Origin: Alcanivoracaceae bacterium
Lineage (GTDB): Bacteria > Pseudomonadota > Gammaproteobacteria > Pseudomonadales > Alcanivoracaceae
Reading direction: 5' to 3'
NCBI GenBank assembly: GCA_002706085.1
Contig: PAJO01000055.1
Span: 1 to 34,418, forward strand
DNA length: 34,418 nt
Made by a program: the position numbers and the translations under genes. The notes beneath the pieces are model-generated. The model saw only the letters and a list, made by a program, of their open reading frames with translations. It did no database searches and was not told the origin of the DNA. Positions within the stretch are counted from its first letter, which is position 1, and the number at the start of each line of letters is the position of its first letter. Positions 658-32,129 of the stretch are shown here, one piece after another.

Positions 658-864
658 ATTGCTATTTTTGCTGATTAAATTTATGCGTGTCCCGTGTCCC
701 GTGTTTCGCGTTGGATAGACCTCGTACTCTTTATCATTGAAATAAGCAGCCATTGATAAGACACACTGCCCCAAGGCCACGAGATAGCATGTTTCTTTCT
801 TCTGAAAGGCATGAGTCGAGGAAGCAAATACGAGCCCAATAGAAATAATAAATAAACGCAACAT
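532..864 (-). pseudogene. Secreted small protein, 3' end probably replaced by element DNA
   Basis: I chose the ATG at 862-864 because a GGAG lies nine bases upstream of it, inside the end of the preceding gene, and because the resulting protein begins with a clean signal peptide (MLRLFIISIGLVFASSTHA, cleavage after THA). Earlier in-frame ATGs at 873 and 879 have no spaced ribosome site. About 35 residues of plausible mature protein follow (FQKKETCYLVALGQCVLSMAAYF...). The frame then crosses the heptamer array and runs antisense into the transposase gene, where it encodes low-quality, proline- and histidine-rich sequence. My reading is that insertion of the transposase element cut off the true C-terminus. 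It is the last gene of a minus-strand trio and would be translated by coupling to the gene ending at 866. The function is unknown. Confidence 0.5.
686..713. repeat. Heptamer array behind the Y1 transposase (CGTGTCC type)
   Basis: Four consecutive 7-base units lie 28 bases after the transposase stop: CGTGTCC twice, then the variants CGTGTTT and CGCGTTG. No inverted partner arm is visible in the window; if one exists it could be upstream of the transposase. The same 7-base period recurs at six other intergenic sites here with different unit sequences. It may mark the end of the transposase-bearing element. Confidence 0.6.
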
Positions 865-865
865 G

Positions 866-1456
866 TTAGACATCTCCATATCTTTCTTTAACCAGCGTCG
901 TAAATTTCGTTGGCAAATCCGGACCAGCGAACAGCTCACAACCTGTCGTTTCAACAATTTTATCCACGAAGGAAAAGTACTCCTTTGGATCGACATCCCA
1001 AGGAAAGTGTATAAAACGAAACAGAGCTAAATCCACTGCCCTCCAGTGTGGAGTCTTCGACAAACACAAGTCCAATTGAAACAATTTTTCAGTATGGATC
1101 GCCGAAGTAGCCGGAGGAGGCCGACAACTCATGCGAACATAGTTATACCGACCTATATCGTGAGACTTTTTCCATTTAAACCACCAAACACTAAAAGTAC
1201 TGGTGATGTTATTCCGATTAACTTTCACTATTACTCTTAAGTTAAGCAATACCAATGCACCAACCAGCAAAGGCAGTCCGACGACACTCATAACTCCAAA
1301 GATATCAAAGCGGTAGAGCATGAATAGATCGATGGCGAAAAATGGCAAGGACATAAACAACATAATCCTTCCACCATTTTCCTTTGAATCTGACCAATTG
1401 CTTTCAAATTCAAAAGTATTCTGATCAACCACATGGCTCTCCATACGTAAATTCAT
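866..1456 (-). CDS. Hypothetical membrane protein with two transmembrane helices
   Basis: This is a 196-residue protein I do not recognise. The N-terminal 30 residues are polar (MNLRMESHVVDQNTFEFESN). They are followed by two hydrophobic segments, about residues 31-50 and 52-78, and a cytosolic or periplasmic C-terminal domain of about 115 residues rich in aromatic and basic residues (WWFKWKKSHDIGRYNYVRMSC). The start overlaps the end of the upstream gene by 32 bases if the first ATG is used, or by 20 if the second (1442-1444) is used. Its stop almost touches the start of the secreted-protein remnant, so the three minus-strand genes look like one operon. The base composition is clearly more A+T-rich than the genes from 2000 onward, which suggests horizontal origin. 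The layout of a Cys-rich protein followed by a small membrane protein could suggest an effector-immunity pair, but nothing in the residues supports that directly. Confidence 0.6.
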   Translation of the reverse strand: MNLRMESHVVDQNTFEFESNWSDSKENGGRIMLFMSLPFFAIDLFMLYRFDIFGVMSVVGLPLLVGALVLLNLRVIVKVNRNNITSTFSVWWFKWKKSHDIGRYNYVRMSCRPPPATSAIHTEKLFQLDLCLSKTPHWRAVDLALFRFIHFPWDVDPKEYFSFVDKIVETTGCELFAGPDLPTKFTTLVKERYGDV

Positions 1457-1925
1457 CCCAAACTACAATGTACTCCTCGAAGCCGAAGCTAGTTTCGAAA
1501 ATTCCGGCCAGCATTATTTTCGCAGAGACTCGCGCGACACCGCCCAACTTCCGGACCGCCCCGCCTGCACACCCGCCAGACGAACAACTATCACCCTCGT
1601 AAACAGCTGCGCTGAAATCGACGGCTGCTGTAGCAGCGACCGTAGTTTCTCCACCTACGCCAAATAAATCCGTACATTTCTTATCACCATTATCCATGCA
1701 TTCTTTGATAGTAACTTCGAGCAAAACAGACACACCAACCTCGGCACGACCAGATGCTTTGACAAGACCTTTAGTACAAGGCTCTTCGTCCTTACATTTG
1801 CTGACTTCATGATTAATAGACCCGCCAAAGTTCATGCTACCGCGCCCAAGCGCTCCTGCTTCAATTTTCCCAGACACACGGAAACCCCAACCCAGGTACT
1901 GATCTGGAACGGAGACTGCGACACC
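1425..1925 (-). pseudogene. C-terminal fragment of an unknown Cys-rich, probably exported protein
   Basis: The frame encodes about 165 residues of beta-strand-like, glycine-rich sequence with cysteines in spaced pairs (KCKDEEPC, ECMDNGDKKC, DSCSSGGC) and ends in TYGEPCG. This pattern suits a disulfide-bonded protein outside the cytoplasm. On the 5' side the frame continues without a credible start into DNA that on the other strand is the DUF533 gene, and the sequence there becomes arginine- and proline-rich antisense noise. The gene is therefore cut at about 1925, where the foreign segment joins the chromosome. It is the first member of the minus-strand remnant operon. I do not recognise a family. 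Confidence 0.5.
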
Positions 1926-1930
1926 CAATC

Positions 1931-2413
1931 CTGGGGCTGGCCGGTGTCGGTGTGTTGGCCTGGAAGACCTACCAGAATTACCAGACCGGCAGCCAGGCCC
2001 AGGGGCAGCCTGCCGCAGCACAACAGGGTCAGCCGCTGGATCAGCTGCAAGGCGCAGATCAGGAGCGCCGGGGTCTGGGAATCCTTCAGGCGATGATCAT
2101 GGCCGCCCGTGCCGATGGGCACATTGATGCCAATGAGCGTGCCCTGCTGACCCGGGAAATCGAGCAACTTGGCGCCGATGATGAACTGCATGCCTGGATA
2201 CAGTCCCAGTTCGATGCACCCCTGGATGCCAGTGCGCTGGCAGCCATGGCCGATTCTCCCCAGGCCGCTCGCGAAATCTATCTGGTCAGTGTGGTGATGG
2301 TGGACGAACAGAACCCCATGGAACGCGCCTGGCTGGACCAGCTCGCCTCTGCCCTGACGTTGGACGCAGGGCTGGCCGCTGAGCTGGAACAGCAGGTGCT
2401 GGCGCCGCGCTGA
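1931..2413 (+). pseudogene. DUF533 / YebE-like protein, N-terminus lost
   Basis: From about 1931 the plus-strand frame reads LGLAGVGVLAWKTYQNYQT, the membrane-proximal segment seen in the middle of DUF533 (YebE-like) inner-membrane proteins. It then gives the conserved alpha-helical domain resembling the tellurite-resistance TerB fold (ILQAMIMAARADGHIDANERALL, then IYLVSVVMVDEQNPMERAWLDQLA). Full family members have a glycine-rich N-terminal region before this point. Here that region is missing and is replaced by the Cys-rich gene fragment of the opposite strand. A GTG at 1952 could start a shortened 153-residue protein, but no ribosome site is evident. The 3' end is intact (TGA at 2411-2413), 18 bases from the convergent hydrolase gene. 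Family assignment is from remembered motifs. Confidence 0.65.
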
Positions 2414-2431
2414 GGCCTGTGCGCCATGTGA

Positions 2432-7300: not shown

Positions 7301-7659
7301 TGCGCAAGGGCTACGGCCTTGGGGCCCAGGCCATGGCCGCCGGCAGTTTTCATTCGCCCTTGTTCACCGCTGCCTGGCCCAGTGCCGAGTTTGGTGCCAT
7401 GGGCCTGGAAGGGGCGGTGCGGTTGGGCTTTGCCAAGGAGCTGGCGGCGCAGCCCACCCCCGAGCGCCAGCAACGGCTGTTCGACAAGCTGGTTGCCAAG
7501 GCCTACCAGCAAGGCAAGGCGCTCAACATGGCCAGCTTCCTGGAAATCGATGCGGTGATTGATCCGGTGGAGAGTCGCCAGTGGATCTTGCGCGGGCTGA
7601 ATGCGTCCGGCTTCAAGGCCGGCTCCCACGGTGGTCGGCCGTTTGTGGATACGTTCTAG
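4390..7659 (+). CDS. Single-chain biotin-dependent acyl-CoA carboxylase (BC-BCCP-CT)
   Basis: All three functions of an acyl-CoA carboxylase lie in one 1089-residue chain. Residues 1 to about 445 are biotin carboxylase: AAILIANRGEIAIRI, the ATP-grasp glycine loop GGGGRGMR, RDCTLQRRHQKLVEFAPAP, and FMEANPRVQVEHTVTEQ. The biotinyl domain has EAMKME with the target lysine at residue 519. Residues from about 565 to the end are the carboxyltransferase, with KGKRTARENLDDLLD, the acyl-CoA site GGGGRPGDTDF, and DTPGFMVGPEAEKQA. This matches the long-chain acyl-CoA carboxylase (LCC) architecture known from Mycobacterium and Rhodopseudomonas. The GTG start at 4390 has GGAG six bases upstream; longer reading frames lack this. 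The substrate (long-chain, branched or other acyl-CoA) is inferred only from architecture. The stop is followed by an inverted-repeat hairpin and a T-rich run. Confidence 0.9.
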   Translation: MPAPFAAILIANRGEIAIRIANACADLGIRSLGVFAEDDQASLHVRQVDEAVALPGRGVPAYLNGAQLIAIAREHGCEAIHPGYGFLGENVAFAEACAEAGLTLIGPGADTLRLFGDKAAARALAARCQVPLVQGTDQAVTLEQSQAFMAALNGSGVMIKALSGGGGRGMRAVTDPADLAAAYARCQSEAQAAFGDDAVYVEQLVSAARHIEVQVLGDGSGVVSHLWERDCTLQRRHQKLVEFAPAPGLEAALRDRIIDSALTLAREVKYHGIGTFEFLVEPEQDRFYFMEANPRVQVEHTVTEQITGVDLVQSQIRLAAGASLADLQLETPPGYDGMAVQLRVNLETLKPDGSTTPAAGTLTAYEPASGPGIRVDGYGYAGYAVSPTYDSLLAKLIVSGADYPAVLQRARRALKQTRIAGVNSNLPLLQALLASDDVQANAVTTRYVETHLDQLLAALPEEVASDLPVTTTTQIENVITPAGCEALLSPTTGVLVSLLVKAGATVQEGQVVAVLEAMKMEFEVRATVAGRVHSLAAREGDALNEASPLLFVEPGEVQGDAIATEESVDLDHIRKDLAEVLDRHQAISDAGRPKAVEKRHSKGKRTARENLDDLLDADSFQEYGAMALAAQRRRRSSEELQAMSPADGLIGGTGTVNAEQFGESAARVMAMSYDYTVFAGTQGMMNHKKTDRLLQLAGQWKMPLVLFAEGGGGRPGDTDFVGVAGLDCHTFAAMATLSGQVPLVGIGSGRCFAGNAALLGCCDVIIATEDATIGMAGPAMIEGGGLGRFTPEQVGPVSVQAPNGVVDVCVRDEAEAVAVAKRYLSYFQGSVTEWQAADQRELRHRIPEKRTRVYDIRTLIETLADTGSVLELRQAFSPGMITALVRIEGKPFGLIANDPTCLGGAIDAVGGDKAARFMQLCEAFGLPMISLCDTPGFMVGPEAEKQATVRHVSRMFVTAASLTIPFFTLVLRKGYGLGAQAMAAGSFHSPLFTAAWPSAEFGAMGLEGAVRLGFAKELAAQPTPERQQRLFDKLVAKAYQQGKALNMASFLEIDAVIDPVESRQWILRGLNASGFKAGSHGGRPFVDTF

Positions 7660-7671
7660 AATCTGAAGAGG

Positions 7672-7740
7672 GTGACGAGATTCGAGTGGCGCAAACCTGG
7701 CCGGAGAGGGTTGAAGGTTTTGCCTTTCGAAACTCGTCAC
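7672..7740. repeat. Inverted repeat with 7-base-period arms (GAGTTTC type), copy 1
   Basis: The left arm (7672-7697) runs GTGAC, GAGATTC, GAGTGGC, GCAAACC. The reverse complement of the right arm (7716-7740) runs GTGAC, GAGTTTC, GAAAGGC, AAAACC. The arms pair imperfectly around an 18-base centre. It lies between convergent genes, and TTTCTTTTT follows on the plus side, so the transcript hairpin may also terminate the carboxylase mRNA. A related copy is at 10699-10776. Confidence 0.7.
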
Positions 7741-7765
7741 TTTCTTTTTGCCAGCACTCCGGTTC

Positions 7766-8458
7766 TTACGGGCTACTCCAGTGATCCGTCAGGGTCTTGT
7801 GGTCGGTGTAGGCGCCGAAGACGCCGCCTTCGTTGAGCATCATTGCCAGTGCTGCATCGTGCAGGGCCGGGTCGCCGGCGCCGCAGCAGTCGGCTACTAC
7901 CAGGCAATCGTAGCCACGGTCGTTGGCTTCGCGCAGGGTGGAATGCACGCAGACATCGGTGGTAACGCCTGTGATCAGCAGATGACGGATGCCGTTGGCA
8001 CGCAGGATCTGGTCCAGGTCGGTGGCGTGGAAGGCTCCGTTGCCGGGTTTGTGCAGGACGGTATCTGCGGGTTCCGGCGCCAGCGCTTCGACAATCTGCG
8101 AGCCCTTTTCCCCCTGTACCAGAAAGCGTCCGAGTGGCCCGTTTGAGCCGATGGCGGTGCCGATGGATTCGGCACGGGCTTTCTTGGTCGGGTTCAGGTC
8201 GGACAGATCCGGGCGGTGCGACTCCAGCGTGTAGATCACTTTCATGCCTTGTTTGCGCACGGCAGCCAGCAGCGCCTGGGTAGGTGCAATGGCGGCACGG
8301 GTGTGGTCAATGTTGTAGCCCATCTGGCCGAAGTAGCCGCCGGGATCGAGAAAATCATTCTGCATGTCGATCACGATCAGGGCGGTGTCGCCGGCAGACC
8401 AGTGGCCGCAGAGCGGCCACGGGTAGGGCAGGGACTGGGACAGAGGCTGCCAGCTCAC
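7766..8458 (-). CDS. Isochorismatase-fold cysteine hydrolase, biuret-hydrolase-like
   Basis: This 230-residue cysteine hydrolase shows the family's catalytic triad: Asp31 in IDMQNDF, Lys137 in LHKPGNGAF, and Cys170 in TTDVCVHSTLREANDRGYDC. The intervals between these residues (106 and 33) match those I recall for biuret hydrolase BiuH, and the REANDRGY context fits the biuret/ureidoacrylate hydrolase branch better than true isochorismatases. The cytoplasmic enzyme would release ammonia from a ureide-type amide. Its ATG overlaps the stop of the upstream substrate-binding protein gene by four bases, so the two are translationally coupled. That partner is of the type linked with urea carboxylase, which supports a role in urea, biuret or ureide nitrogen use. 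The exact substrate is not established. Confidence 0.8.
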   Translation of the reverse strand: MSWQPLSQSLPYPWPLCGHWSAGDTALIVIDMQNDFLDPGGYFGQMGYNIDHTRAAIAPTQALLAAVRKQGMKVIYTLESHRPDLSDLNPTKKARAESIGTAIGSNGPLGRFLVQGEKGSQIVEALAPEPADTVLHKPGNGAFHATDLDQILRANGIRHLLITGVTTDVCVHSTLREANDRGYDCLVVADCCGAGDPALHDAALAMMLNEGGVFGAYTDHKTLTDHWSSP

Positions 8459-10698: not shown

Positions 10699-10776
10699 GG
10701 GAGCGAGTGACGAGTTTCGAGTTACGAAAATCTGGCCCGGAGTGGTTTGAGGGTTTTGCTTTTCGAAGCTCGCTTA
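10699..10776. repeat. Inverted repeat with 7-base-period arms (GAGTTTC type), copy 2
   Basis: The left arm is in heptamer register: GAGTGAC (10705-10711), GAGTTTC, GAGTTAC, GAAAATC (to 10732). The centre, beginning TGGCCCGGAGTGG and continuing into GAGGGTTTTGC, is close to the centre of the copy at 7672-7740 (TGGCCGGAGAGGG, then GAAGGTTTTGC). The right arm, GCTTTTCGAAGCTCGC, pairs imperfectly with the left. The two copies are clearly homologous. Confidence 0.7.
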
Positions 10777-10811
10777 TCGCAACTCCTCCCCTCTTTCCTC
10801 GCTACGCTCGG

Positions 10812-16291: not shown

Positions 16292-16509
16292 AGCTGTGAG
16301 CTGTGAGCTGTGAGCTGTGAGGGGCAAGCTACAAGCTTCAAGCTGCAACGCGGATCAGGCTGGTGGATTTTGAATGGCAGTGCCCGCGGGGGAGGCGGAG
16401 CGGTTTTGTGCTGCGATTCGCGTTTCAGGCCTGGTCGCGGGCAGTGAAAACCAGTATGTGCTCACTTGGCCCGCGACTCATAGCTCAGAGCTCAAGGCTC
16501 GCAGCTGTC
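16292..16509. repeat. Inverted heptamer-armed element (AGCTNNN type)
   Basis: The left arm holds eight 7-base units (16292-16347): AGCTGTG four times, then variants AGGGGCA, AGCTACA, AGCTTCA and AGCTGCA. The right arm holds four (16482-16509): AGCTCAG, AGCTCAA, GGCTCGC and AGCTGTC, which read as AGCT-type units on the other strand. The centre contains an inverted repeat of its own: CAGTGCCCGCG near 16378 pairs with CGCGGGCAGTG near 16437. The right arm ends three bases before the MerR stop codon. No gene fits in the gap from 16187 to 16512. Confidence 0.75.
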
Positions 16510-22540: not shown

Positions 22541-22620
22541 GTGTGGTGACTTCATCACGGGGCGTGATGGCTATCGGTGTGCCAGGGGATCGAGGGATTT
22601 GGGGTGATTTGCCAGAAGGC

Positions 22621-22652
22621 AAAAAAAAGGGCCGGCAGAAGGTGCCGACCCT
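22621..22652 (-). terminator. Rho-independent terminator for the minus-strand PF10118 gene
   Basis: On the minus strand AGGGTCGGCA, a five-base loop and TGCCGGCCCT form a ten-base stem with one mismatch, followed by a run of eight T (A at 22621-22628 on the plus strand). It lies 40 bases after the stop at 22692. Confidence 0.85.
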
Positions 22653-22691
22653 GGAATCACCGGAAAGGGAGAGCTCGGTGAATAAAAAACC

Positions 22692-23537
22692 TTATGCGGC
22701 GTCCCGCAGGATATCGCCAAGCAGCGCTTCGAAGTTTTCGAGGTGCTGGCGGTTATCGTGATCCCACGGATGGAAGCCGGGCTTGAACCAGTCCAGCCAA
22801 GGGCGGGTAATGTTGCGGAAGATACCCTTCTTGCCCCAGGTGTGTTTGGCCACGGCGCGCCAGCCTTTCAGGTCGGTCAGGCCGCCCTTGATCCGCACGT
22901 TGTGCAGGTAGAAGGGGATGAACAAGGCAAAGAAAATGCCGGTGGCCGCCACCAGTGTTGAGGTGCGCAAGGCGTAGGCGCCTGGGTTGCTGTCGCGCCC
23001 AATGACGGTGGTGTAGACGTCAAATGCCACGGCCTTGTGCTCGGTTTCTTCCAGTGCGTGCCAGTTCCAGATGGCCTGATAGCCCGGGTCTGATCCATCC
23101 ATGATTTCTGGCAGGTCCAGCAGGCCGCCTCCCAGAATCGCTGTCAGGTGTTCCAGTGCCACGGTAGCGGCCAGCTGGAAAGCCTTGGGAGTGTAGGCCT
23201 GAACAGCATTGAGCAACTTGGTGACGACTTCTTCCTGTGCATGCAGCGGGATACCGCTGTCAGCCACGTAGTTGTTGTATTCGTCATGCTCACGGCCGTG
23301 CATGGCTTCCTGGCCAATAAAGGCGGTGACCGCTTTTTTCAGCTCGGGATCAGTGATCTGGTCACGGTAATTGCGTACGCTATCGATGAAAAAGCGTTCC
23401 CCCACCGGAAAGAACAAGCTCATGGTGTTCAGGAACTGGCTGACGTTCAGCCCGTCCTTGTGCCAGGTCAGGGCCTTGGCCGGGTTGAGGTTGAACTTCA
23501 GGTTGCGTCGAATCGGAAGAATCGAGATCGCTTTCAT
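22692..23537 (-). CDS. PF10118-type predicted metal-dependent hydrolase
   Basis: This 281-residue protein matches the family of predicted metal-dependent hydrolases that look like ferritin-type diiron proteins. FPVGERFFIDSVR, GQEAMHGREHDEYN, ALEHLTAILG and HALEETEHKAVAFDVY supply Glu and His residues in E..H spacing as expected for a two-metal site. A hydrophobic stretch at about residues 195-212 (STLVAATGIFFALFIPFYL) may bind membrane or lipid. GGAGG stands six bases before the ATG. The gene diverges from an unknown gene at 23622 over 84 bases that contain a dyad. The reaction is not established for this family; lipid or hydrocarbon oxidation is a guess from its frequent occurrence in oil-degrading genera. 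Confidence 0.8.
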   Translation of the reverse strand: MKAISILPIRRNLKFNLNPAKALTWHKDGLNVSQFLNTMSLFFPVGERFFIDSVRNYRDQITDPELKKAVTAFIGQEAMHGREHDEYNNYVADSGIPLHAQEEVVTKLLNAVQAYTPKAFQLAATVALEHLTAILGGGLLDLPEIMDGSDPGYQAIWNWHALEETEHKAVAFDVYTTVIGRDSNPGAYALRTSTLVAATGIFFALFIPFYLHNVRIKGGLTDLKGWRAVAKHTWGKKGIFRNITRPWLDWFKPGFHPWDHDNRQHLENFEALLGDILRDAA

Positions 23538-23554
23538 GGCGTACCTCCATAACT

Positions 23555-23574
23555 GTTACATCAGTTAATGATAC
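23555..23574. promoter_or_regulatory. Weak dyad in the divergent PF10118/unknown promoter region
   Basis: GTTACAT (23555-23561) and ATGATAC (23568-23574) form an imperfect inverted repeat, with five of seven pairs. Aligned with the dyad at 19983-20000, it shares TTACA, the central GT and AATG. A common TetR-type regulator is possible but the match is modest. Confidence 0.3.
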
Positions 23575-23621
23575 AATTAACCCCTGAACCATCAAGGACT
23601 TTTCCGCCCAGGCATCACGAC

Positions 23622-24605
23622 ATGACAGACAATAAACAAGAAGTGGCAAATCGTTTACTTGATGGGCTGGTGGATTATCTGCTGGCCCGTCTGGCCCCGG
23701 CGCAGCTGGAGGGCTTGATCGAAACCGAACTGGATTACCTGCTTGAGCAGGCTGGCCGCTACACCCTGACAGAGTGGGTCAGCGCCGAGCAGATCCATCA
23801 CACCGCGCGCAAGTACGCGGTAGAGATGCACATTAGTGGCGCGATTCCCGAACTGGTTGGCGACATGGTCGAGAAGTTCTACGACCAGGCGGCGGACAGT
23901 GACCGGGTGGTGGCGGATGTCATTGATGAAGATGTGGTGATGGCGCTGCTGGACAAGGTGCTTGAGATCCCGCTGTCGCGTCAGGGAATGGCGTGGCTGG
24001 GTCGTAACCCGGTGCTACTGGCGTTGCTGGCCGGGGGCGCCCAGATGGGCCTCAAGACCCTGTTGCACCAGGGGCTGCCCGCGCCGCTGCGCGAACAACT
24101 GGGCAAGCGCTTGCCGGCACGCTGGGTGTCCAGCGTGGAAACCCGCCTGCAGGAATGGCTGCTGCGCCGTACCGAGCAGCTGCTGAGTGATCCCTATCTG
24201 TACCGGGACGAGAACCTGGACGAGCTGCGCGAGCTGGTGCTCGTGGCCTGGCAGGAGTTTGCCCAGCGCCCGGTGGCGGACGTGCGGGAGCTGGTGACCA
24301 GTGAAGATATCCAGGAACTGTTTGTGATCGGTTTCGAATACTGGCGGGAGCTACGTCATACCGATTATTTCAACAGTCTGCTGTTGTCCGGGGTGAATGC
24401 CTTCTTTGAAAAATACGGCGACACCAGCCTGACCGAGCTGCTGGAGGAAATGGGCGTCACCCGCGAAATGATGCTCGACGACGCCCGCCGCTTCGCCCCG
24501 CCGATCCTCGACAAGCTGCGCACGGAAGGCCTGCTTGAGGCGTGGCTTCGTCGTCATCTGAAGGGGTATTTTGAGGCGGAGGAGACGCTCGATCTTTTGA
24601 GTTGA
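23622..24605 (+). CDS. Conserved-looking helical protein of unknown function
   Basis: I do not recognise this 327-residue protein. It is acidic and almost wholly alpha-helical, with no signal peptide. One moderately hydrophobic segment lies near residues 125-140 (GRNPVLLALLAGGAQMGLKTLL). Notable blocks are LLDGLVDYLLARLAPAQLEGLIETELDYLLEQ, QLLSDPYLYRDENLDELRELVLVAW and LTELLEEMGVTREMMLDDARRFAPPILDKL. The start at 23622 avoids the promoter dyad; an ATG at 23568 in the same frame lies inside it. It is divergent from the PF10118 gene, so the two may share a regulator and a task. The TGA stop lies inside the first heptamer of the inverted repeat at 24602-24757. Confidence 0.7.
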   Translation: MTDNKQEVANRLLDGLVDYLLARLAPAQLEGLIETELDYLLEQAGRYTLTEWVSAEQIHHTARKYAVEMHISGAIPELVGDMVEKFYDQAADSDRVVADVIDEDVVMALLDKVLEIPLSRQGMAWLGRNPVLLALLAGGAQMGLKTLLHQGLPAPLREQLGKRLPARWVSSVETRLQEWLLRRTEQLLSDPYLYRDENLDELRELVLVAWQEFAQRPVADVRELVTSEDIQELFVIGFEYWRELRHTDYFNSLLLSGVNAFFEKYGDTSLTELLEEMGVTREMMLDDARRFAPPILDKLRTEGLLEAWLRRHLKGYFEAEETLDLLS

Positions 24606-24757
24606 CAGTTGATAGTGGACAGTTGACAGCTACGCGGCCTGCCGCGAGATGTTTAGAAATGCAGAGGCCGCGCCCAAACCTGGACGCGGCCTCTTTGCTT
24701 TCAATGAACAGATAACCTGATCCGCGAGCTGTCAACTGTCCACTATCAACTGTCAAT
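24602..24757. repeat. Perfect 30-bp inverted repeat with heptamer arms (TTGACAG type)
   Basis: The left arm (24602-24631) is made of the units TTGACAG, TTGATAG, TGGACAG and TTGACAG plus CT. The right arm (24728-24757) is its exact reverse complement. The 96-base centre includes a terminator hairpin. The stop codon of the plus-strand gene (24603-24605) is in the left arm and the stop codon of the minus-strand GGDEF/EAL gene (24746-24748) is in the right arm, so the element fills the convergent gap exactly. Confidence 0.85.
24664..24702 (+). terminator. Terminator hairpin inside the inverted-repeat element
   Basis: GAGGCCGCG (24664-24672) and CGCGGCCTC (24685-24693) form a perfect nine-base stem with a 12-base loop, followed by TTTGCTTTC. 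It serves the plus-strand gene best; on the minus strand the following bases are less T-rich, but the hairpin could act both ways. Confidence 0.7.
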
Positions 24758-27625
24758 TGCTTTTCTATACGCCTGCGTATGCAGCAACTCCACCAGCTCT
24801 CCTTCCGGTACCGGCTTGCTGATCAGGTACCCCTGGATGCTGTCGCAGTCCATGTCGCGCAGGATGCTGAGGTGGTCTTCGGTTTCCACGCCTTCTGCGA
24901 CCACGTTCATCTGCAGGCTGTGAGCCATGTCGATGATGGCGCGGGTGATGGCGGCGTCGTCGGGGCTCTTGTCCAGATCCATAATGAAGGACCGGTCGAT
25001 TTTCAGGGTGTCTACCGGGAAGCGCTTCAGGTAGCTCAGTGAGGAATAGCCGGTGCCGAAATCGTCCAGGGCCAGCTCGATACCGCGGGTGCGCAGTTGC
25101 TGGAGCAGCTCGATGTTCTGCTCCATGTCTTCCATGATCAGGCTTTCGGTGAGCTCCAGTTCCAGCAGGTGGGGTGGCAGCTCGGTGCTGGACAGTACCC
25201 GGTCGACAATATCGGCCACATTGCCCTTGCGGAACTGGTGGGCGGACAGGTTCACCGAGACGCAGATGTCGCCCAGCCCCTGCTTGTGCCATTTGTAGGC
25301 CTGGCGACAGGAGCGTTCCAGTACCAGCTCACCAATGGCGGAGATCAGGCCGGTTTCTTCGGCCAGCGGGATAAATTCGGCGGGCGGCAGCAGGCCCATG
25401 GTCGGATGCTGCCAGCGGACCAAAGCTTCCACAGAATTGATGCGGTTGGTGGCCAGATCCATTTTCGGTTGGTAATGAACCACAAACTCGTTCTTGAAAA
25501 TGGCCTTGCGCAAGCTGGTTTCCAGGGCCAGTTGCTCCACCGAGGCCACGCGCATGTTACTGCGATAGAACTGGTAGTTGTTGCCGCCACTGCGCTTGGC
25601 TTGATACACCGCCATATCGGCCTGGTTGATCATGCTCTGCGCTTCTTTGGCGGTGTCGGGGAAGATACTGATGCCAATACTGGCCCCCAACAGCAGCTCA
25701 TGGCCATCAATGATGAAAGGCTTCTTCATGGCATTGATGAGCTTCTGGCACTGCTGGGTGATGACGTTTTCACCGCCATGGTTTTCCATCAACAGGGTGA
25801 ACTCGTCGCCACCAACCCGGGCCATGTTTTCGACCCCGCCGGCATGCTCGCCAAGCCGCTCTGCGGCCGCCTTGAGCAGGCGGTCGCCAATTTCGTGGCC
25901 GAGGGACTCATTAATGGGCTTGAAGCGGTCCATGTCGATCATCAGCAACGCGACCTTTTCCCGGTTCAGGCGGGCCAGGGTCAGGGACTTGTGCAGGTGC
26001 TCGCGGAACTGGGAGCGGTTGGGCAGGCCGGTCAGGCGGTCGTAGTTGGACAGGAACTGGAGCTGTTGCTCGGTTTCCTTGCGGACCGTCAGGTCGGACA
26101 TCATGCCCACATAACGAATCACCCGTTTGTGTTCATCGCGCACCGCGCTGACCTGCAACCACTCCGGGAACATCTCGCCGTTGCGGCGCCGTTCGTTGAT
26201 TTCCCCTTCCCAGAAACCATTTTCCTTCAGGGCGGCGGTAATGGACAGATAGGCTTCGCGGTTGGCCGCGGTTTCTTCGTGGTCCAGCACCTGTTTACCC
26301 AGCACCATGGATTCCGAGTACCCGGTGATTTGTTCAAAGCGGGCATTCACGGCCAGGAAGCGGAATTTCTGATCGAGGATGAAGATGCCTTCCGGTGCAT
26401 TTTCGAACACGGTGGCGGCCAGTCGTTGCTGTTCCTGGGCCTGGCGGTCTTCGGTAATGTCGCGGCGGGTGCCGATCATGCGGGTGGCGCGGCCCTTTTC
26501 GGACCATTTGACCACGCGACCGTCATCTTCGATCCAGCGCCAGCTGCCATCGGCGTGGCGCAGCCGGTAGACCGCATGGTAGCGGTTGCTGTCACCCTTG
26601 AAGTGAGCAACCATGGCCCGGCGGATGCGGGTCAGATCTTCCGGGTGAACCAGCGTTTCCAGGTCACCGAAGAAGTTTTTGAAGTAGGCGCTGTCGTAGC
26701 CCAGCAACCGGTCGAAATTGGTGTGGTAGTTGCGGCCGGTGTCCAGCATCCAGTCCCACAGACCGATATTGCTGGCTTCCAGCGCCAGTTCCAGCCGCTC
26801 ACCGGTGGCGCCCAGCGCCTGATTGCTCTCTTCCAGCGCCTGGGTGCGCTCCTGCACCATGGTCTCCAGGCGCTCGTTGGTTTCCTGCAGTCGCTGCCGG
26901 GCCTCTTTGCGTTCGTAGATTTCCTGGGCCAGCTTCTCGTTCAGGGCCTCGGCATCACTGCGGGCACGGTTCAGGTAATCGATCAGTGAGCGATTGCTGG
27001 CCTGCAGCATCATCGCCTGGTGGCCGGTGTTGTGGATGCGTCGGGCGGCCAGCAGGAAGAACAGGCCCAGCACCGAGAGCAGCACCATGAGGGATAGCTC
27101 GGTTTCGGCCTGGGTCTGGGACAGCCGGTACATGGTTGGGCCCAGCAGCATGGCCAGATACAGGAATACGGTCGGGAAATGGCTGCTGTAGGCCGCCAGG
27201 GCCATGGTGCTCAGGCCAAGGCCGAGGCAGGCGCACAGTAGCTGAACGCTGAGCAAGTCGGGCCGGAACAGCAGTTCTACCGGGTTGAACAGGTACCCGG
27301 CCATGCCGATCAGTAGCGGGGTGCTCAGGGCCAGGCAAGACAGCATGACCCGGCAACGGGGGGTGATTTCGTCCCGCAGCAGGCGCTGGCGGCACAGATA
27401 CAGCAGGGGCAAGCGCAGCAGCTGCACCACAATCACGGTGGCCAGCCAGCCCAGTAGCAGGGAACGGGGGACCTCTCCATTCCAGTAAAAGCCGGCAAGC
27501 GCGGCGGCACTGATGGATTCGAGGACAAACAGCACGACAACGCCACTGAATAGCAGCTGGCATTGTTCTGTCAGCACGCCCTTGAAGGGAGCGTGGGCTG
27601 TTTTGTTCGGAGACTGCGAAGACAC
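24746..27625 (-). CDS. Membrane PAS-GGDEF-EAL protein (cyclic-di-GMP turnover)
   Basis: This protein of about 959 residues has an N-terminal membrane part with six or seven helices (to about residue 215), a coiled coil (LNEKLAQEIYERKEARQRLQETNERLE...), two PAS domains, a GGDEF domain with the intact VGGDEF signature near residue 605, and an EAL domain with EAL at 733-735, DDFGTGYSSLSYL and AEGVETEDHL. Both catalytic signatures look intact, so it could make and degrade cyclic-di-GMP in response to a signal sensed by the PAS or membrane parts. I prefer the GTG at 27625, with AGGA eleven bases upstream. An ATG at 27682 would add 19 polar residues but has no ribosome site. The last codons (Asp-Ser-stop) are encoded by the heptamer repeat arm. 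It is divergent from uvrD. Confidence 0.87.
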   Translation of the reverse strand: MSSQSPNKTAHAPFKGVLTEQCQLLFSGVVVLFVLESISAAALAGFYWNGEVPRSLLLGWLATVIVVQLLRLPLLYLCRQRLLRDEITPRCRVMLSCLALSTPLLIGMAGYLFNPVELLFRPDLLSVQLLCACLGLGLSTMALAAYSSHFPTVFLYLAMLLGPTMYRLSQTQAETELSLMVLLSVLGLFFLLAARRIHNTGHQAMMLQASNRSLIDYLNRARSDAEALNEKLAQEIYERKEARQRLQETNERLETMVQERTQALEESNQALGATGERLELALEASNIGLWDWMLDTGRNYHTNFDRLLGYDSAYFKNFFGDLETLVHPEDLTRIRRAMVAHFKGDSNRYHAVYRLRHADGSWRWIEDDGRVVKWSEKGRATRMIGTRRDITEDRQAQEQQRLAATVFENAPEGIFILDQKFRFLAVNARFEQITGYSESMVLGKQVLDHEETAANREAYLSITAALKENGFWEGEINERRRNGEMFPEWLQVSAVRDEHKRVIRYVGMMSDLTVRKETEQQLQFLSNYDRLTGLPNRSQFREHLHKSLTLARLNREKVALLMIDMDRFKPINESLGHEIGDRLLKAAAERLGEHAGGVENMARVGGDEFTLLMENHGGENVITQQCQKLINAMKKPFIIDGHELLLGASIGISIFPDTAKEAQSMINQADMAVYQAKRSGGNNYQFYRSNMRVASVEQLALETSLRKAIFKNEFVVHYQPKMDLATNRINSVEALVRWQHPTMGLLPPAEFIPLAEETGLISAIGELVLERSCRQAYKWHKQGLGDICVSVNLSAHQFRKGNVADIVDRVLSSTELPPHLLELELTESLIMEDMEQNIELLQQLRTRGIELALDDFGTGYSSLSYLKRFPVDTLKIDRSFIMDLDKSPDDAAITRAIIDMAHSLQMNVVAEGVETEDHLSILRDMDCDSIQGYLISKPVPEGELVELLHTQAYRKAIDS

Positions 27626-27800
27626 CTTGATTATTATCCTCTGGCCGTGAAGCCGAGTGTTTTTGTTTGTCAGTGTACCCATCGACAGGAAGAAGGGGAA
27701 CCGCCTTTATTTGCCTATCTCAAGGGCGGGACAGAGGCTCCCCAATCACTCCCGCCGAGCAGGGGTTTCTTGGGCCCACATTCTGCTAAACTCCCGCGCC

Positions 27801-29963
27801 ATGGATGACGTGACTTCCCTTATTGATGGTTTGAACCCGGCCCAGCGCGATGCGGTGGCAGCCGATGACCGCCATTTGCTGGTGCTGGCCGGGGCCGGTT
27901 CGGGCAAGACCCGGGTGCTGGTGCACCGGATCGCCTGGCAGATCGCCACCGAACAGGCCTCGCCGTTCGGTATTCTGGCGGTCACCTTTACCAACAAGGC
28001 GGCCGCCGAAATGCGCGGCCGTATTGAGCATCTGCTGGATATGTCGGCGGACGGTATGTGGGTGGGCACTTTCCACAGCATTGCCCACCGCTTGCTGCGC
28101 TCGCACTGGCAGGAGGCCGGCCTGCCCCAGGGCTTCGAGATTATTGATGCCGATGACCAGCAGCGGTTGATCAAGCGGGTCATCAAGGAGCTGGGGCTGG
28201 ATGAACAGCGCTGGCCGGCCCGCCAGGCCACCTGGTTCATCAACAGCCAGAAGGACGAGGGGCTGCGAGCCAGACACATGGACGCCAATGGCGACCTGTT
28301 TGTCCAGACCATGCAAAAGATCTATTCCGGCTATGAAGAAGCCTGCGAGCGCGGTGGCCTGGTGGATTTCAACGAGATGCTGCTGCGGGTGCTGGAGTTG
28401 TTCCGCGACAACGACAGCCTGCGGGGCCACTACCAGCGCCGCTTCCGCCATATTCTGGTAGACGAATTCCAGGATACCAACAGCATCCAGTACGCCTGGT
28501 TGCGGTTGCTGGCCTGTGAAGACAATGCGGTGACCATTGTGGGCGATGATGACCAGTCCATTTACGGCTGGCGCGGCGCCAAGATCGAGAATATTCACAA
28601 GTTCAGCCGTGATTTCCCGGATACCCGCACCATCCGCCTGGAGCAGAACTACCGCTCCACCGGCACCATCCTGAAAGCGGCCAACGCGGTGATCGACAAC
28701 AACAGCGATCGTCTGGGCAAGGAACTCTGGACCGAAGGCGGCGATGGCGACCCGATTCGCTTGTATGCCGGCTTCAACGAAGTGGACGAAGCCCGCTTCG
28801 TGGCCGGCCGGGTGGACAAGCTGTTCCAGGAAGGCACCGCGCGGCGGGAAATGGCCGTGCTGTACCGTTCCAATGCCCAGTCACGGGTGCTGGAAGAAGC
28901 CTTCCTGCAGGCCGGTATTCCCTACCGCATCTATGGGGGGCAGCGTTTCTTCGAGCGTCTCGAGATCAAGAACGCGTTGGCGTACCTGCGCCTGATCAGC
29001 AACCGTCACGCAGATGCCGCCTTCGAGCGGGCGGTCAATACGCCCACTCGCGGCATTGGCAACAAGACCCTGGAAACGTTGAGGGAAGTGGCCCAGGCCC
29101 GCGGTTGCTCGCTGTGGGATGCCGGGCAGGCCATTGTGAGTGAGCAGTTGCTTACTGCCCGGGCGATCAATGCACTGGCCGTTTTCCTCAATCTGGTCGG
29201 CCAGCTGGCACAGCAGTGTGAGGGGCTGAATCTGGGGGAAACCGCTGAGCATGTCATCGAGGCCAGTGGTCTGGTGGCGTTCCATGGCAAGGAAAAAGGC
29301 GAGAAGGGGCAGCAGCGCCAGGAAAACCTGCGAGAGCTGGTGTCTGCCACCCGTGAGTTCGGTGAGGAAGATGAAGATTCCGAGATGGACTCGCTGACAG
29401 CGTTTCTGGATCACGCGGCGTTGGAGTCTGGCGAGGGTCAGGCCGATGCCCATGAGGACGCGGTGCAGATGATGACCCTGCACTCGGCCAAGGGGCTGGA
29501 GTTCCCGGTGGTGTTCATTTGTGGCATGGAAGAGGGCCTGTTTCCTCACCAGCGTTCCAGTGAGGACCCCAGTGGCCTGGCCGAAGAGCGTCGTCTTTGC
29601 TACGTGGGTTTGACTCGCGCCATGCGCGAACTGTACCTGACCCATGCGGAAAGCCGTCGCCTGTACGGCAACGAAAACTATAACCCGCCTAGCCGCTTCC
29701 TGCGCGAGATTCCCGCCGAGGCCATGGAAGAGATTCGTGCCCGCGCCGGTTTCAGCCGCCCCATGGGCGGTGGCAGCAAGCCGATCCGGGAAACCGAGGC
29801 CAACGGTATTGTGCTGGGCGCGCGCGTGTTGCATCCCAAGTTCGGCGAAGGCACGGTGCTGCACTTTGAGGGGCAGGGCCCCAATGCACGCTTGCAGATC
29901 AATTTCGACGGCGCTGGCACCAAATGGCTGGTCAGCCAGTACGCGCGTCTGGAAGTGATTTGA
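27801..29963 (+). CDS. uvrD: DNA helicase II, UvrD
   Basis: This 720-residue superfamily 1 helicase is the same length as E. coli UvrD. It shows the Q motif region LNPAQRDAV, Walker A GAGSGKT (31-37), motif Ia TFTNKAAAEMR, Walker B DEFQDT (Asp221, Glu222), motif III DDDQSIYGWRG, motif IV QNYRST, motif V TLHSAKGLEF, and motif VI VGLTRAMRELYL. The C-terminus has the Tudor-like end (LGARVLHPKFGEGTVLHFEG ... KWLVSQYARLEVI). It unwinds DNA 3' to 5' in nucleotide excision and mismatch repair. The ATG at 27801 is the natural start; the open frame extends further upstream without family sequence. I saw no clear LexA box upstream. A heptamer-armed inverted repeat follows the gene. Confidence 0.97.
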   Translation: MDDVTSLIDGLNPAQRDAVAADDRHLLVLAGAGSGKTRVLVHRIAWQIATEQASPFGILAVTFTNKAAAEMRGRIEHLLDMSADGMWVGTFHSIAHRLLRSHWQEAGLPQGFEIIDADDQQRLIKRVIKELGLDEQRWPARQATWFINSQKDEGLRARHMDANGDLFVQTMQKIYSGYEEACERGGLVDFNEMLLRVLELFRDNDSLRGHYQRRFRHILVDEFQDTNSIQYAWLRLLACEDNAVTIVGDDDQSIYGWRGAKIENIHKFSRDFPDTRTIRLEQNYRSTGTILKAANAVIDNNSDRLGKELWTEGGDGDPIRLYAGFNEVDEARFVAGRVDKLFQEGTARREMAVLYRSNAQSRVLEEAFLQAGIPYRIYGGQRFFERLEIKNALAYLRLISNRHADAAFERAVNTPTRGIGNKTLETLREVAQARGCSLWDAGQAIVSEQLLTARAINALAVFLNLVGQLAQQCEGLNLGETAEHVIEASGLVAFHGKEKGEKGQQRQENLRELVSATREFGEEDEDSEMDSLTAFLDHAALESGEGQADAHEDAVQMMTLHSAKGLEFPVVFICGMEEGLFPHQRSSEDPSGLAEERRLCYVGLTRAMRELYLTHAESRRLYGNENYNPPSRFLREIPAEAMEEIRARAGFSRPMGGGSKPIRETEANGIVLGARVLHPKFGEGTVLHFEGQGPNARLQINFDGAGTKWLVSQYARLEVI

Positions 29964-29973
29964 AGAAAGTCTG

Positions 29974-30057
29974 GCGTCGGACGACGGACGTCTGACGCAG
30001 ACAAGACCATCTTCGTTACCGCGGGTTTAGCGTCCGACTTCAGACGTCTGACGTCCG
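29974..30057. repeat. Inverted heptamer-armed element (GTCNGAC type)
   Basis: The left arm has four units from 29974: GTCGGAC, GACGGAC, GTCTGAC and GCAGACA. The right arm (30030-30057) has GTCCGAC, TTCAGAC, GTCTGAC and GTCCGAC, which on the other strand read as GTCGGAC-type units. The centre is 28 bases. The left arm starts ten bases after the uvrD stop. It lies between two codirectional genes, and its hairpin could attenuate read-through into dctP. Confidence 0.75.
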
Positions 30058-30118
30058 ACCCGTCGAAAAGAACAATGGGCCTGCAATTTGCCGCGGCCCA
30101 ACCAAGGAGGACACATCA

Positions 30119-31258
30119 TTGGACCGTCGTAAATTCGTTTCTGCCCTGGGATTGGGCCTGGGTGGCCTGGCACTGGCTGGATGTGAGCAGAAAGACTGCC
30201 CGCCTGCCGAAGGTCAGGCCGCCGCCGGTGCGCCGGAAAAGAAAAAACCGCAGCCGCAAACCTACGAATGGAAGATGGTCACCACCTGGCCGAAGAATTA
30301 CCCGGGCCTGGGCGCGGGTGCCAACCGGTTTGCCAAGCGAGTGGAAGAAATGTCTGCCGGGCGGATCAAGATCAAGGTGTACGGCGCCAAAGAGCTGGTG
30401 CCGGCGTTCGAGGTGTTTGATGCGGTGCGCCAGGGCAGTGCCGAAATGGGCCACGGCGCAGCCTACTACTGGAAAGGCAAACACCCGGCGACTCCGTTCT
30501 TTACCGCTGTGCCCTTTGGGCTCACCGCCCAGGAAATGAATGGCTGGCTGCACCATGGTGGTGGCCAGGAATTGTGGGATGACCTGTATGCCCAGTTCAA
30601 TCTCAAGCCATTTGCCTGCGGCAATACCGGCACCCAGATGGCGGGCTGGTTCAACAAGGAAATCAACAGCGTTGACGATCTCAAGGGGCTGAAAATGCGC
30701 ATGCCCGGCCTGGCCGGGGAAGTGCTGGCCAAGGTCGGCGCCACGCCAGTGCAGTTGCCCGGGGCGGAAGTGTTCACCTCCCTGCAGACCGGTGCCATCG
30801 ACGCGGCAGACTGGGTTGGCCCCTACAACGATCTGACCTTTGGTTTGCACCGGGTGGCAGAGTACTACTACTACCCGGGCTGGCAGGAGCCTGGCCCGAC
30901 GCTGGAGCTGACCATCAACAAGAGGGTGTGGGACAGCCTGCCGGCGGATCTGCAGGCGATCATTCGCTATGCCGCCCAGTCAGAAAACCAGGACATGCTC
31001 GATGAGTACACCGCACGCAACAACGCCGCCCTGGACGAGTTGGTCAACAAGCACGGCACCAAACTGCGTCGCCTGCCGGATGATGTGCTCAAGGCCTTGA
31101 AAGACGCCAGTGATGAAGTGGTCGAGGCGCTGGTGGCAGACAACAAGGATGCCCGCAAGGTGTATCAGTCGTACCGCAAGTTCCGCGATGAATCCATCAA
31201 CACCATGGCCATCGCCGAGCAGCCGTACCTGAATATCCGTAAAGCGCTGGAAGGCTGA
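30119..31258 (+). CDS. dctP: TRAP transporter substrate-binding protein (DctP/TakP-like), Tat lipoprotein-type leader
   Basis: This 379-residue extracytoplasmic solute receptor starts at TTG (30119) with AAGGAGG eight bases upstream. The leader MDRRKFVSALGLGLGGLALAGC has both a twin-arginine-like RRKF motif and a lipobox LAGC, suggesting Tat export and lipid anchoring at Cys22. The mature domain begins YEWKMVTTWPKNYPGLG, the TakP-type signature of alpha-keto acid and lactate-type TRAP receptors. It continues with GAIDAADWVGPYND and the aromatic YYYYPGWQEPG ligand segment. Its membrane partners are probably the DctQ and DctM genes at 32329-34244, which are on the opposite strand and beyond a thioesterase gene. 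The substrate is likely a carboxylate; identity is unproven. Confidence 0.9.
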   Translation: MDRRKFVSALGLGLGGLALAGCEQKDCPPAEGQAAAGAPEKKKPQPQTYEWKMVTTWPKNYPGLGAGANRFAKRVEEMSAGRIKIKVYGAKELVPAFEVFDAVRQGSAEMGHGAAYYWKGKHPATPFFTAVPFGLTAQEMNGWLHHGGGQELWDDLYAQFNLKPFACGNTGTQMAGWFNKEINSVDDLKGLKMRMPGLAGEVLAKVGATPVQLPGAEVFTSLQTGAIDAADWVGPYNDLTFGLHRVAEYYYYPGWQEPGPTLELTINKRVWDSLPADLQAIIRYAAQSENQDMLDEYTARNNAALDELVNKHGTKLRRLPDDVLKALKDASDEVVEALVADNKDARKVYQSYRKFRDESINTMAIAEQPYLNIRKALEG

Positions 31259-31386
31259 GGGCTATCAGCTATCAGCTATCAGCTATCAGCTATCAGCTAT
31301 CAGCTATCAGCTATCAGCTATCAGCTATCAGCTATCAGCTACGCTGGGTTGGAATGCAAAACCCAAAATAGTTCCCGACTATTTAA

Positions 31387-31500
31387 AAGAACGGAAACGC
31401 TTTCCAGATTGTTGAGTTCGGCGCCAATAAATAAATTGAGCACCTGGTAGGAGCCATGCTCGCATGGCGAACCGAGCCCAAGCGAGGCAGGATCCAGGTC
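31387..31500 (+). repeat. REP-containing repeat of about 115 bp, direct copy 1
   Basis: It begins with AAGAACGGAAA, passes through GTTGAGTTC and reaches a REP palindrome at 31447-31470 (GTAGGAGC, CATG, CTCG, CATG, GCGA), then a G+C-rich tail with GCGAGGC and GATCCAGG. The same order of blocks occurs at 32194-32310. The core matches the GTAGGAGC...CTTG...GCGA layout of pseudomonad REPs. Confidence 0.8.
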
Positions 31501-31520
31501 CTTGGACGCTTGCATGGTGA

Positions 31521-31572
31521 GAGATCCCTGAGCCTGGCTGCGCTCGGATCGCCATGCAAGCATAGCTCCTAC
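31521..31572 (-). repeat. REP element in inverse orientation
   Basis: Read on the minus strand from 31572: GTAGGAGC, TATG, CTTG, CATG, GCGATCC, then a second G+C-rich part ending in GGGATC. With the REP at 31447 it forms a head-to-tail inverse pair about 75 bases apart, like the BIME pairs of other gammaproteobacteria. Confidence 0.75.
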
Positions 31573-31733
31573 AGCCTCTCCTGGCGCGGGTAGAATGGAA
31601 CGGTCTTTCTTGTCGAGCAGGGCACCTTTTATCTGTTTTTCCCACCCACAAAAAAACGCGGGCAGAACCTGTGCCGTGTGGCACACCGTCCTGCTCGCGT
31701 TGTAGCTTGTAGCTTGTAGCTTGTAGCTTGAGG

Positions 31734-32129
31734 CTAGTCCTGCGGCACCACCCGGGTGCGCCCGGTGTCATCAATCGCCACAAAGGTGAAATGCCCTTCG
31801 GTCACCTTGGACAGGGTGCCGGTGTCTTCACGAATCCACACTTCCACCAGAATCTGCATGGAGCTGCGGCCGATGTCCTGCAGCTGGGTGTAGCAGCTGA
31901 CCACGGCGCCAATGGGGACCGGGCGCAAGAAGGCCATGGAATCGATGGCCACGGTGGCGACCCGGCCACGGGCTTTTTTGCGGGCGGTAACGGCACCGGC
32001 CAGGTCCATCTGGGACACCAGCCAGCCACCAAAAATGTCGCCGTTCCAGTTGGAATCCTGGGGCATGGCAATGGTCTGGATAGCCAGGGTGCCAATGGGC
32101 TGCGGGGTGTCGTCGGTGTGATCGGTCAT
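31734..32129 (-). CDS. YciA-like acyl-CoA thioesterase (hotdog fold)
   Basis: This 131-residue thioesterase has the YciA pattern: PQPIGTLAIQTIAMPQDSNWNGDIFGGWLVSQMDLAGAVTA, with the catalytic Asp in NGDIFGGW and the following hotdog helix, then VATVAIDSMAFLRPVPIGAVVSCY. YciA-type enzymes are hexamers that hydrolyse a wide range of acyl-CoAs. I take the ATG at 32129; a GTG at 32141 would add four residues, and neither has a strong ribosome site. The gene separates the TRAP binding protein from the TRAP membrane subunits and is bracketed by direct copies of a REP-containing repeat. Its stop codon abuts the TTGTAGC heptamer array. Confidence 0.88.
   Translation of the reverse strand: MTDHTDDTPQPIGTLAIQTIAMPQDSNWNGDIFGGWLVSQMDLAGAVTARKKARGRVATVAIDSMAFLRPVPIGAVVSCYTQLQDIGRSSMQILVEVWIREDTGTLSKVTEGHFTFVAIDDTGRTRVVPQD

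Follow-up and report, generated by a model that had tools for sequence, protein, structure and literature searches.

Intergenic arrays of tandem 7-base units (heptamers) are described from Xanthomonas and Nostoc, where GGGNATC and GGGGA(C/T)T repeats consist mostly of four units, lie on average 28 nt from the 3′ end of the upstream gene, occur in inverted pairs and are rare between divergent genes; in two Xanthomonas genomes, arrays of the GGGAATC type were reported to form 70 and 75 such pairs (Rehm et al. 2015, PMC4692102). In this study, we analysed a 34,418-nt stretch of DNA, hereafter the window, which is contig C55 (PAJO01000055.1, assembly GCA_002706085.1) of an Alcanivoracaceae genome of 3.78 Mb, and found in its intergenic gaps elements whose two arms are built of heptamer units in opposite orientation. 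A protein of the window matches named Alcanivorax genomes at 90–95% identity. Alcanivorax is an oil-eating marine bacterium.

The Alcanivorax elements share with the Xanthomonas and Nostoc repeats the intergenic heptamer arrays, the position near gene 3′ ends, the inverted pairing, the rarity between divergent genes and the variation of length and sequence between species (PMC4692102). An earlier note on this DNA, made from the letters alone, had known of no described class with inverted arms and locus-specific units; as regards the inverted arms, the published Xanthomonas pairs correct this view. The two sets differ in that the available text of that report gives one G-rich unit per genome and proposes a G-quadruplex, whereas about seven unit classes occur here in one genus and the listed Alcanivorax units include no GGG-repeat unit. 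Furthermore, orthologous elements of Alcanivorax differ from each other by class switching and by spacer inversion. The TAACTGA repeats of Beggiatoaceae are likewise intergenic heptamers of a gammaproteobacterium, with two to six copies, some split by related heptamers; unlike the present elements, they are described, in the portion of the source available, as one unit located mostly upstream of start codons, with one inverted repeat in 170 sets (MacGregor 2015, PMC4679880).

Three further systems are comparable in part. REP and REPIN sequences are intergenic, palindromic and present in many copies, and REP-like pairs lie in the same gaps as the heptamer arms; as far as the accessible sections of the reports go, REPs have a conserved sequence and linked transposases (PMC2817692, PMC3116915), whereas the heptamer arms have no sequence conserved across their seven classes and a spacer core is shared in class A only. 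Site-specific invertible elements use a recombinase gene whose product acts on a fixed inverted site, whereas the arms here differ in sequence between loci. Template switching at quasipalindromes, for which arm homogenization with spacer inversion is a named signature in yeast (PMC8604942), can make, keep and repair hairpin stems (PMC8794818) and leaves arms alike and spacers flipped, the latter as at three class A loci here; within the available text of both reports it is known from yeast coding genes and RNA genes, not from genome-wide periodic arms. A literature search of open-licence papers returned nothing on heptamer arrays in Alcanivorax, on class switching or on spacer inversion between heptamer arms.

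We describe a real, genus-wide set of heptamer-armed gene-end elements, kin to the Xanthomonas heptamer repeats, of which the new part is class switching and spacer inversion. Each element has two inverted arms of about three to five heptamer units, often around a spacer of approximately 100 nt, directly after stop codons. The different repeats in related species, together with the flipped spacers, suggest a copying process that keeps rebuilding the hairpins.

Spacer inversion between species

The comparison set comprised 16 further genomes from the same genus (designated by G-numbers), with the window's own genome counted separately; genes were called by a simple codon scorer, and the class names A to G and the class patterns were defined in the present analysis. 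The element at 24602 lies between two gene ends in the window:

24602..24631, plus strand: left arm, class A (TTGACAG-type), overlapping the stop codon of the gene at 23568–24605; 30 of 30 bases paired with 24727–24756, as in 0 of 300 shuffles.
24663..24694, no strand: central GC-rich hairpin AGAGGCCGCG...CGCGGCCTCT, nested between the arms; 10 pairs, 100% paired in 12 species.
24727..24756, minus strand: right arm, class A, overlapping the stop codon of the PAS-GGDEF-EAL gene (24746–27682, minus strand).

Orientation at this gap was judged from the sequence flanking the palindromic core, which was compared between species both directly and reversed; a call needed a margin of more than 8. Among 66 species pairs, 12 were called direct and 9 inverted. 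The 21 calls are consistent with two orientations, of which G004, G015 and G016 have the reversed one; the window's own sequence was assigned to neither. Since the three reversed species belong to one clade, a single inversion event is enough at this gap. At a second locus (locus A, after the gene at L054:14598), where 9 of 17 genomes carry a paired element, 36 pairs gave 6 direct and 7 inverted calls, and G014 and G005 were reversed relative to G012, G010 and G007. G014 and G012 form a fully supported sister pair, so that locus A requires two inversion events, unless alleles moved between species. The clearest case is G007 against G014 at this locus: the arms are the same, the spacer can be aligned along its length in the reversed orientation only (77 inverted, 0 direct), and the right flank scores 54.5 direct and −24 inverted. 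At a third locus (locus B), 55 pairs gave 7 direct, 8 inverted and 1 ambiguous call, with G014 and G005 again reversed; this comparison left out G013 (contig end), the window's own genome (many N), and G009 and G001 (no element), and G008 was without the core.

For the background, 463 orthologous comparisons of control gaps without arrays gave 263 direct, 14 ambiguous and 2 inverted calls, the rest being without a call. Both inverted calls are artefactual and come from a single gap, compared once from each side, that contains a run of N and a REP palindrome. Judged from aligned sequences, the spacer of approximately 100 nt is inverted between species at three of the four loci that could be judged, all three of class A; no inversion was called at the fourth, of class D.

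At the 24602 gap, the two arms also appear to have changed together. In the alignment of 12 species, 28 cells were changed on both sides against 15.6 ± 3.4 after shuffling (0 of 500 shuffles as high), the covariation score was 0.152 against 0.108, and slid structures paired far worse. G001 and G002, which carry no element, were left out of one species alignment. Likeness of the arms within a site exceeded same-side likeness between species in 50 of 66, 23 of 36, 26 of 28 and 26 of 31 comparisons, counts that lean upward because the arms had been chosen by their match.

Class switching at orthologous gaps

The comparison of orthologous gaps called for in the earlier note supported its proposal of a mechanism that keeps the period and the pairing but not the sequence, as sister species were found to carry different heptamers and spacers were found inverted. 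In 94 orthologous-gap comparisons from six genome samples, 36 gaps held a paired element, 10 an array only, 42 were longer without an element and 6 were short, so that elements are often absent from orthologous gaps. Within the 36 paired cases, the class was the same in 11 and another in 25 (19 with a named other class; several of these gaps were seen from both sides). In the gap between uvrD and dctP, inspection by eye showed class E in G008 and class D in its sister G009, and likewise class D in G004 and a period-9 ACCACAGAGG repeat in its sister G011. Such a ACCACAGAGG-type inverted repeat occupies this gap in both G005 and G011 (L037, L048), where others have heptamer arms, and five period-9 arrays were present in the 400 kb sample of G004.

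One locus retains its central hairpin across three species whose arms differ in class, being C in G012, B-like in G004 and F in G008. At one divergent gap, four genomes (G004, G012, G008 and G001) have the element in an identical position but with arms that differ. Change in place is suggested by intermediate units, for instance AGTTACA in G004, which falls between classes B and C. In the uvrD–dctP gap of G012 (L039), a class E arm is followed by a class D element that carries a second copy of the uvrD 3′ end, a sign of exchange of gap alleles by recombination.

The distribution of classes was compared with the phylogeny, using class labels set by eye. No signal was found at the uvrD–dctP gap (9 changes in 17 species; shuffled mean, 7.8) and a weak one at the 24602 gap (5 changes in 14 species, G003, G009 and G011 being left out; mean, 6.3). 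A signal was present at the gap between dctP and the thioesterase gene (7 changes in 14, without G002, G011 and G013; mean, 9.0; 7 of 300 shuffles as low). None of the 48 orthologous gaps without an element was a clean empty site: the best-scoring candidate equalled the filled gap in length, and the second (G008, 75 bp) retained pieces of the arms.

The period of seven and the unit classes

Tandem Repeats Finder reported period 7 in the window at 686–704, 10704–10727, 16292–16321, 16325–16348, 24600–24629, 24729–24756, 29975–29997, 30031–30059, 31261–31341 and 31700–31730. The earlier note had claimed one fixed period at seven sites. This held individually at six of them, where 0 of 300 shuffles per site reached the period-7 score, and genome-wide; at 7655–7770, the score was reached in 55 of 300 shuffles, and this site is therefore an inverted repeat whose period is weak at best. 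In a sample of 502,430 bases from the same genome, 21 intergenic period-7 arrays scored at least 12, against 0.0 in shuffled sequence and none at any other period from 2 to 22 except 1 at period 2, 13 at 14 and 5 at 21; period 7 is thus commoner than periods 5, 6 and 8, which the note had named for comparison. Multiples of seven aside, a 400 kb sample of G012 gave 38 arrays at period 7 and 1 each at 8, 12, 16 and 22. For periods 4–12 in whole 400 kb samples, period 7 against all others stood at 39 to 4 in G012, 12 to 2 in G008, 15 to 5 in G004 (all five of period 9) and 3 to 5 in G001. The excess of period 7 is a trait of the genus, weak in G001. The arrays thus belong with the heptameric simple sequence repeats of bacteria, whose 7-base tandem units are over-represented in intergenic DNA relative to other periods.

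In 80 named loci (1.42 Mb, mostly from other genera), there were 17 period-7 arrays in 12 loci, 9 of them in Alcanivorax or close relatives, against 7 arrays at period 6 and 0–2 at each other period. The period was also visible in the arms of intergenic inverted repeats of at least 17 bases, in which lag-7 matches occupied 0.486 and 0.448 of positions and the other lags from 3 to 12 occupied 0.18–0.29. Chance was ruled out by the shuffles for the period, the pairing of arrays and the arm matches. A coding artefact was likewise discarded, as 21 of the 22 arrays of the own sample are intergenic. The provision of stop codons in several frames is an unlikely reason for the period, as the commonest units of classes C and F, read by eye in the sense direction, contain no stops.

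About seven polarity-locked unit classes are common to many loci. The sense units are AGTTAAC, AGTGAAC and AATTAAT for class A, AGTTGAA for B, AGCTACA, AGCTATC and AGCTGTG for C, GACGTCT for D, GACGCCT for E, CACGCAA for F and CGAGTTT for G. Both arms belong to one class in 55 of 61 elements (5 unclassed, 1 mixed), a likeness that is partly by construction. Units specific to each locus, as supposed before, were not found; the same units recur at many loci with fixed polarity, and shared 7-mers among 85 classed elements lay 3653 times in the same and 26 times in the opposite orientation, although these pairs are not independent. The class A pattern occurred in 5 of 274 genomes sampled from the taxonomic class, this genome included, and the class C pattern in this genome only. 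Two of the other four had 1 class A match each and two, from distant genera, had 58 and 167; a third genome of this kind (the three being G263, G265 and G141) had 70 matches to the backwards control pattern and may carry a heptamer family of its own. Among eight loci inspected in these genomes outside the genus, paired arms were found in one (L266).

Other elements in the window

The remaining arms and arrays of the window are as follows.

29976..29995, plus strand: left arm, class D (GTCGGAC/GACGTCT), after the uvrD stop codon; 0 of 300 and 0 of 1000 shuffles.
30040..30059, minus strand: right arm, class D; 0 of 300 and 0 of 1000 shuffles.
31261..31341, plus strand: left array, class C, 11.6 perfect GCTATCA copies, beginning 2 nt past the dctP stop codon; score 162.
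31700..31730, minus strand: right array, class C, with TTGTAGC in 4.4 copies; the minus-strand gene ends 3 nt away.
16292..16321, plus strand: left array, class C, 4.3 copies of AGCTGTG, from Tandem Repeats Finder and partner scores.
16325..16348, plus strand: second class C array (CAAGCTA-type), adjoining the first, without a partner of its own (best score 9).
16477..16506, minus strand: right arm to 16292–16321; partner score 15, gapped score 20 against a shuffle maximum of 11.
7666..7690, plus strand: left arm, class G (CGAGTNN-type), after the biotin carboxylase/carboxyltransferase gene; inverted repeat in 0 of 300 shuffles, period 7 weak (55 of 300).
7722..7746, minus strand: right arm, class G, from the shuffle tests with the 7666 arm.
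10699..10730, plus strand: left arm, class G, imperfect; gapped score 12 against a shuffle maximum of 11.
10760..10790, minus strand: right arm, class G, imperfect, from the gapped match to the 10699 arm.
686..704, plus strand: 2.7 copies of CGTGTCC, a heptamer array without a partner and outside the family, from Tandem Repeats Finder and a partner search.

The genes that adjoin these sites include those for an acyl-CoA carboxylase-type enzyme, the PAS-GGDEF-EAL protein, UvrD, a DctP binding protein and a DctM permease. Inverted arms, which had been claimed for six sites, were matched at all six, by the complete pairing at 24602 and by gapped arm-to-arm scores that exceeded 1000 of 1000 shuffles at the other five (7666, 10699, 16292, 29976 and 31261). 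The pair at 10699 is imperfect, and the array at 686–704 has no reverse-complement partner within 700 bases (best score, 5). The 31261 and 31700 arrays reached a match found in 0 of 1000 shuffles despite two differences among the 7 bases of their units. When gaps were disallowed and a 7-base exact seed was required, the search missed the arms at 10699, 16292 and 31261. The further claim that arms resemble each other more within a site than between sites failed twice: the left arm at 10699 scores 15 with the right arm at 7722 against 12 with its own, and the left arm at 16292 scores 22 with the right arm at 31700 against 20 with its own.

At the genome scale, where arrays were collected irrespective of pairing, a reverse-complement partner (score of at least 14) was present for 15 of 35 arrays scoring at least 10 in the own sample, against 12 of 175 controls, and for 23 of 57 arrays in G012, against 8 of 285 controls. 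Inverted pairing is strongly enriched, yet it is detected by the partner test for under half of the arrays.

The best ungapped repeat at the 31261 site is a REP-like pair between the arrays. These REP-like inverted repeats, GTAGGAGC...GCTCCTAC, lie at 31447–31480 and 31539–31572, inside 31261–31730, and again at about 32256–32300 after the next gene; similar repeats fill the orthologous gaps of other species. The stretch at 16363–16480, between class C arms, is GC-rich and carries the short inverted repeat GTCGCGGGC (16434–16442 and 16469–16477), resembling other class C cores. The array at 686 lies within positions 1–2000, where the G+C content is 0.477 against 0.575–0.634 elsewhere in the window, possibly foreign DNA. 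A scan of the window against Rfam gave no family at the gathering score.

Position and polarity relative to genes

Of 88 arrays placed across five genus samples, convergent gaps held 41 and tandem gaps 44, whereas a single array lay in a divergent gap and two were within genes; divergent gaps make up 251 of the 1235 gaps. Among the 85 arrays flanked by a stop codon on at least one side, the stop lay at most 15 nt away for 47; a start codon was that close for 4 of 45. By a looser search, 7 of 91 paired elements were in divergent gaps, which are therefore not free of elements, and 52 were in tandem gaps. The polarity is fixed with respect to the gene end: in the 51 listed arrays at most 20 nt from a stop codon, every recognized class read, by eye, in one sense leading away from the stop, one array (G001) being classless. 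The spacer measured 80–120 nt in 43 of the 85 classed elements, the 6 unclassed ones among the 91 being left out of the polarity test and of the mismatch counts below.

Alternative explanations

Selection at the level of RNA would have the arms pair in 3′ untranslated or read-through RNA, where they end or protect transcripts, with ordinary compensatory substitutions keeping the pairing. We regard this as unlikely, although the location after stop codons and the near absence from divergent gaps agree with it, as does the folding of class A elements: a fold of −100.3 kcal/mol (z, −13.1) was computed for the RNA of the 24602 site, and the central hairpin reaches z < −2 in 16 of 16 class A spacers against 24% of controls. 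Place and folding together suggest a possible role at transcript ends. The central hairpin is not general, since class B spacers have a median z of 0.2 (n=12) and 38% of class C spacers (n=16) reach the threshold. A simple scan for terminators with a U tract over 16180–32340 gave 16 sites against 15.0 ± 4.5 in shuffled sequence, none of them at 24602, and the central hairpin there is absent from its list. Some gaps, such as the dctP gap of G012 read from its sequence, have a U-rich terminator between the arms, in which case one RNA should not hold both arms. Selection for hairpins in transcripts had also been raised in the earlier note; mismatches between arms are more often G-U than A-C in tandem gaps (28 against 17), as it would predict, but the excess is not significant (two-sided p 0.14), nor is the difference in convergent gaps (G-U 9, A-C 14). 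Finally, spacer inversion is not accounted for by RNA-level selection.

Two explanations at the DNA level fare worse. Plain heptamer microsatellites, arising by slippage next to stop codons and tolerated there, would give inverted pairs wherever two convergent genes each carry a sense array. The length of the perfect arrays (11.6 copies at 31261 and as much as 161 nt in G004), the sense polarity after stop codons and the over-representation of heptamers reported for many bacterial genomes, as far as the available text of the source shows (PMC4692102), are in line with this, but paired arms occur in tandem gaps too (the 52 of 91 elements above), the variant units match in detail between the arms (the 30 of 30 at 24602) and spacers are inverted, making slippage by itself improbable. 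Miniature mobile elements, with the arms as terminal inverted repeats and a transposase as the agent that spread the entire unit, would fit the size of approximately 160 bp, the terminal inverted arms, the many copies and the class A core common to several loci. However, spacers of different loci share a short core at most, one G014 pair with 82% over 101 nt being the exception among non-orthologous loci; the arm class differs at orthologous sites, and 0 of 48 element-free gaps is a clean empty site. Mobilization by transposition, which the earlier note had considered, is accordingly very improbable.

Proposed template switching or recombination between arms

We consider it somewhat probable that these gene-end hairpins have their arms kept alike and their spacers flipped by template switching or arm recombination, with repeat slippage in addition. 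In this process, replication strands would switch template between the arms, or the arms would recombine. A template switch would copy one arm onto the other, so that the arms change together, and could flip the spacer; recombination between the arms would flip spacers likewise. Slippage within an arm would spread unit variants and alter the copy number, and the exchange of whole gap alleles between species would spread the variants. Selection probably tolerates the result or uses it as a two-way transcript end, which is the least secure step. Template switching would give paired class changes and inversions without an enzyme that reads the arm sequence.

Several observations weigh against this explanation. 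Neither template switching nor recombination accounts for the length of seven or the fixed polarity, the latter of which may reflect common descent of the units. The yeast spacers that flip measure 2–5 bp in the accessible text (PMC8604942), against approximately 100 nt here. Inversion was not seen evenly: the uvrD–dctP gap (class D) gave 3 direct pairs and 0 inverted, and just 5 of 17 species have a strict pair there; the dctP–thioesterase gap had one in just 1 of 15; and 21 spacer pairs from the orthologs of the six samples gave 4 direct calls, 1 inverted (a doubtful nested gap) and 16 without a call. Among the class A loci, the unlabelled pair G014–G004 at 24602 (20.5 direct, 13 inverted) contradicts the two orientations, G014 and G005 at locus B have eroded arms that the arm finder rejected, and three weak inversion calls of the first locus B comparison were not repeated in the second. 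The control gaps have no inverted arms and thus gauge the background, not the need for period seven. With regard to the arms, 2 of 5 covariation measures lay within the shuffles (double-change pairs, 173 of 500; further pair types, 500 of 500), and the best match of the left arm was its own right arm in just 1 of 12 species, because two unit variants alternate between species groups. The arms were picked by mutual match in the class, mismatch and within-site comparisons, so the likeness within classes and sites is partly by construction.

It is possible, if rather doubtful, that Alcanivorax carries a genome-wide system of structure-guided invertible elements at gene ends, in which the heptamer arms serve as sites of inversion and conversion, with sequence free and period, polarity and pairing kept, and in which intergenic DNA is repeatedly rewritten and flipped without a mobile enzyme. 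Two questions described as open in the available parts of the literature bear on these elements, namely why bacterial tandem repeats favour seven bases (PMC4692102) and by what means long hairpin stems remain complementary as their sequence evolves (PMC8794818). The genus supplies numerous natural replicates, with the same gap holding different heptamers and flipped spacers in close species, and arm conversion, slippage and inversion become measurable in a bacterium that is culturable and non-pathogenic. Covariation in such hairpins need not imply selection at the level of RNA.

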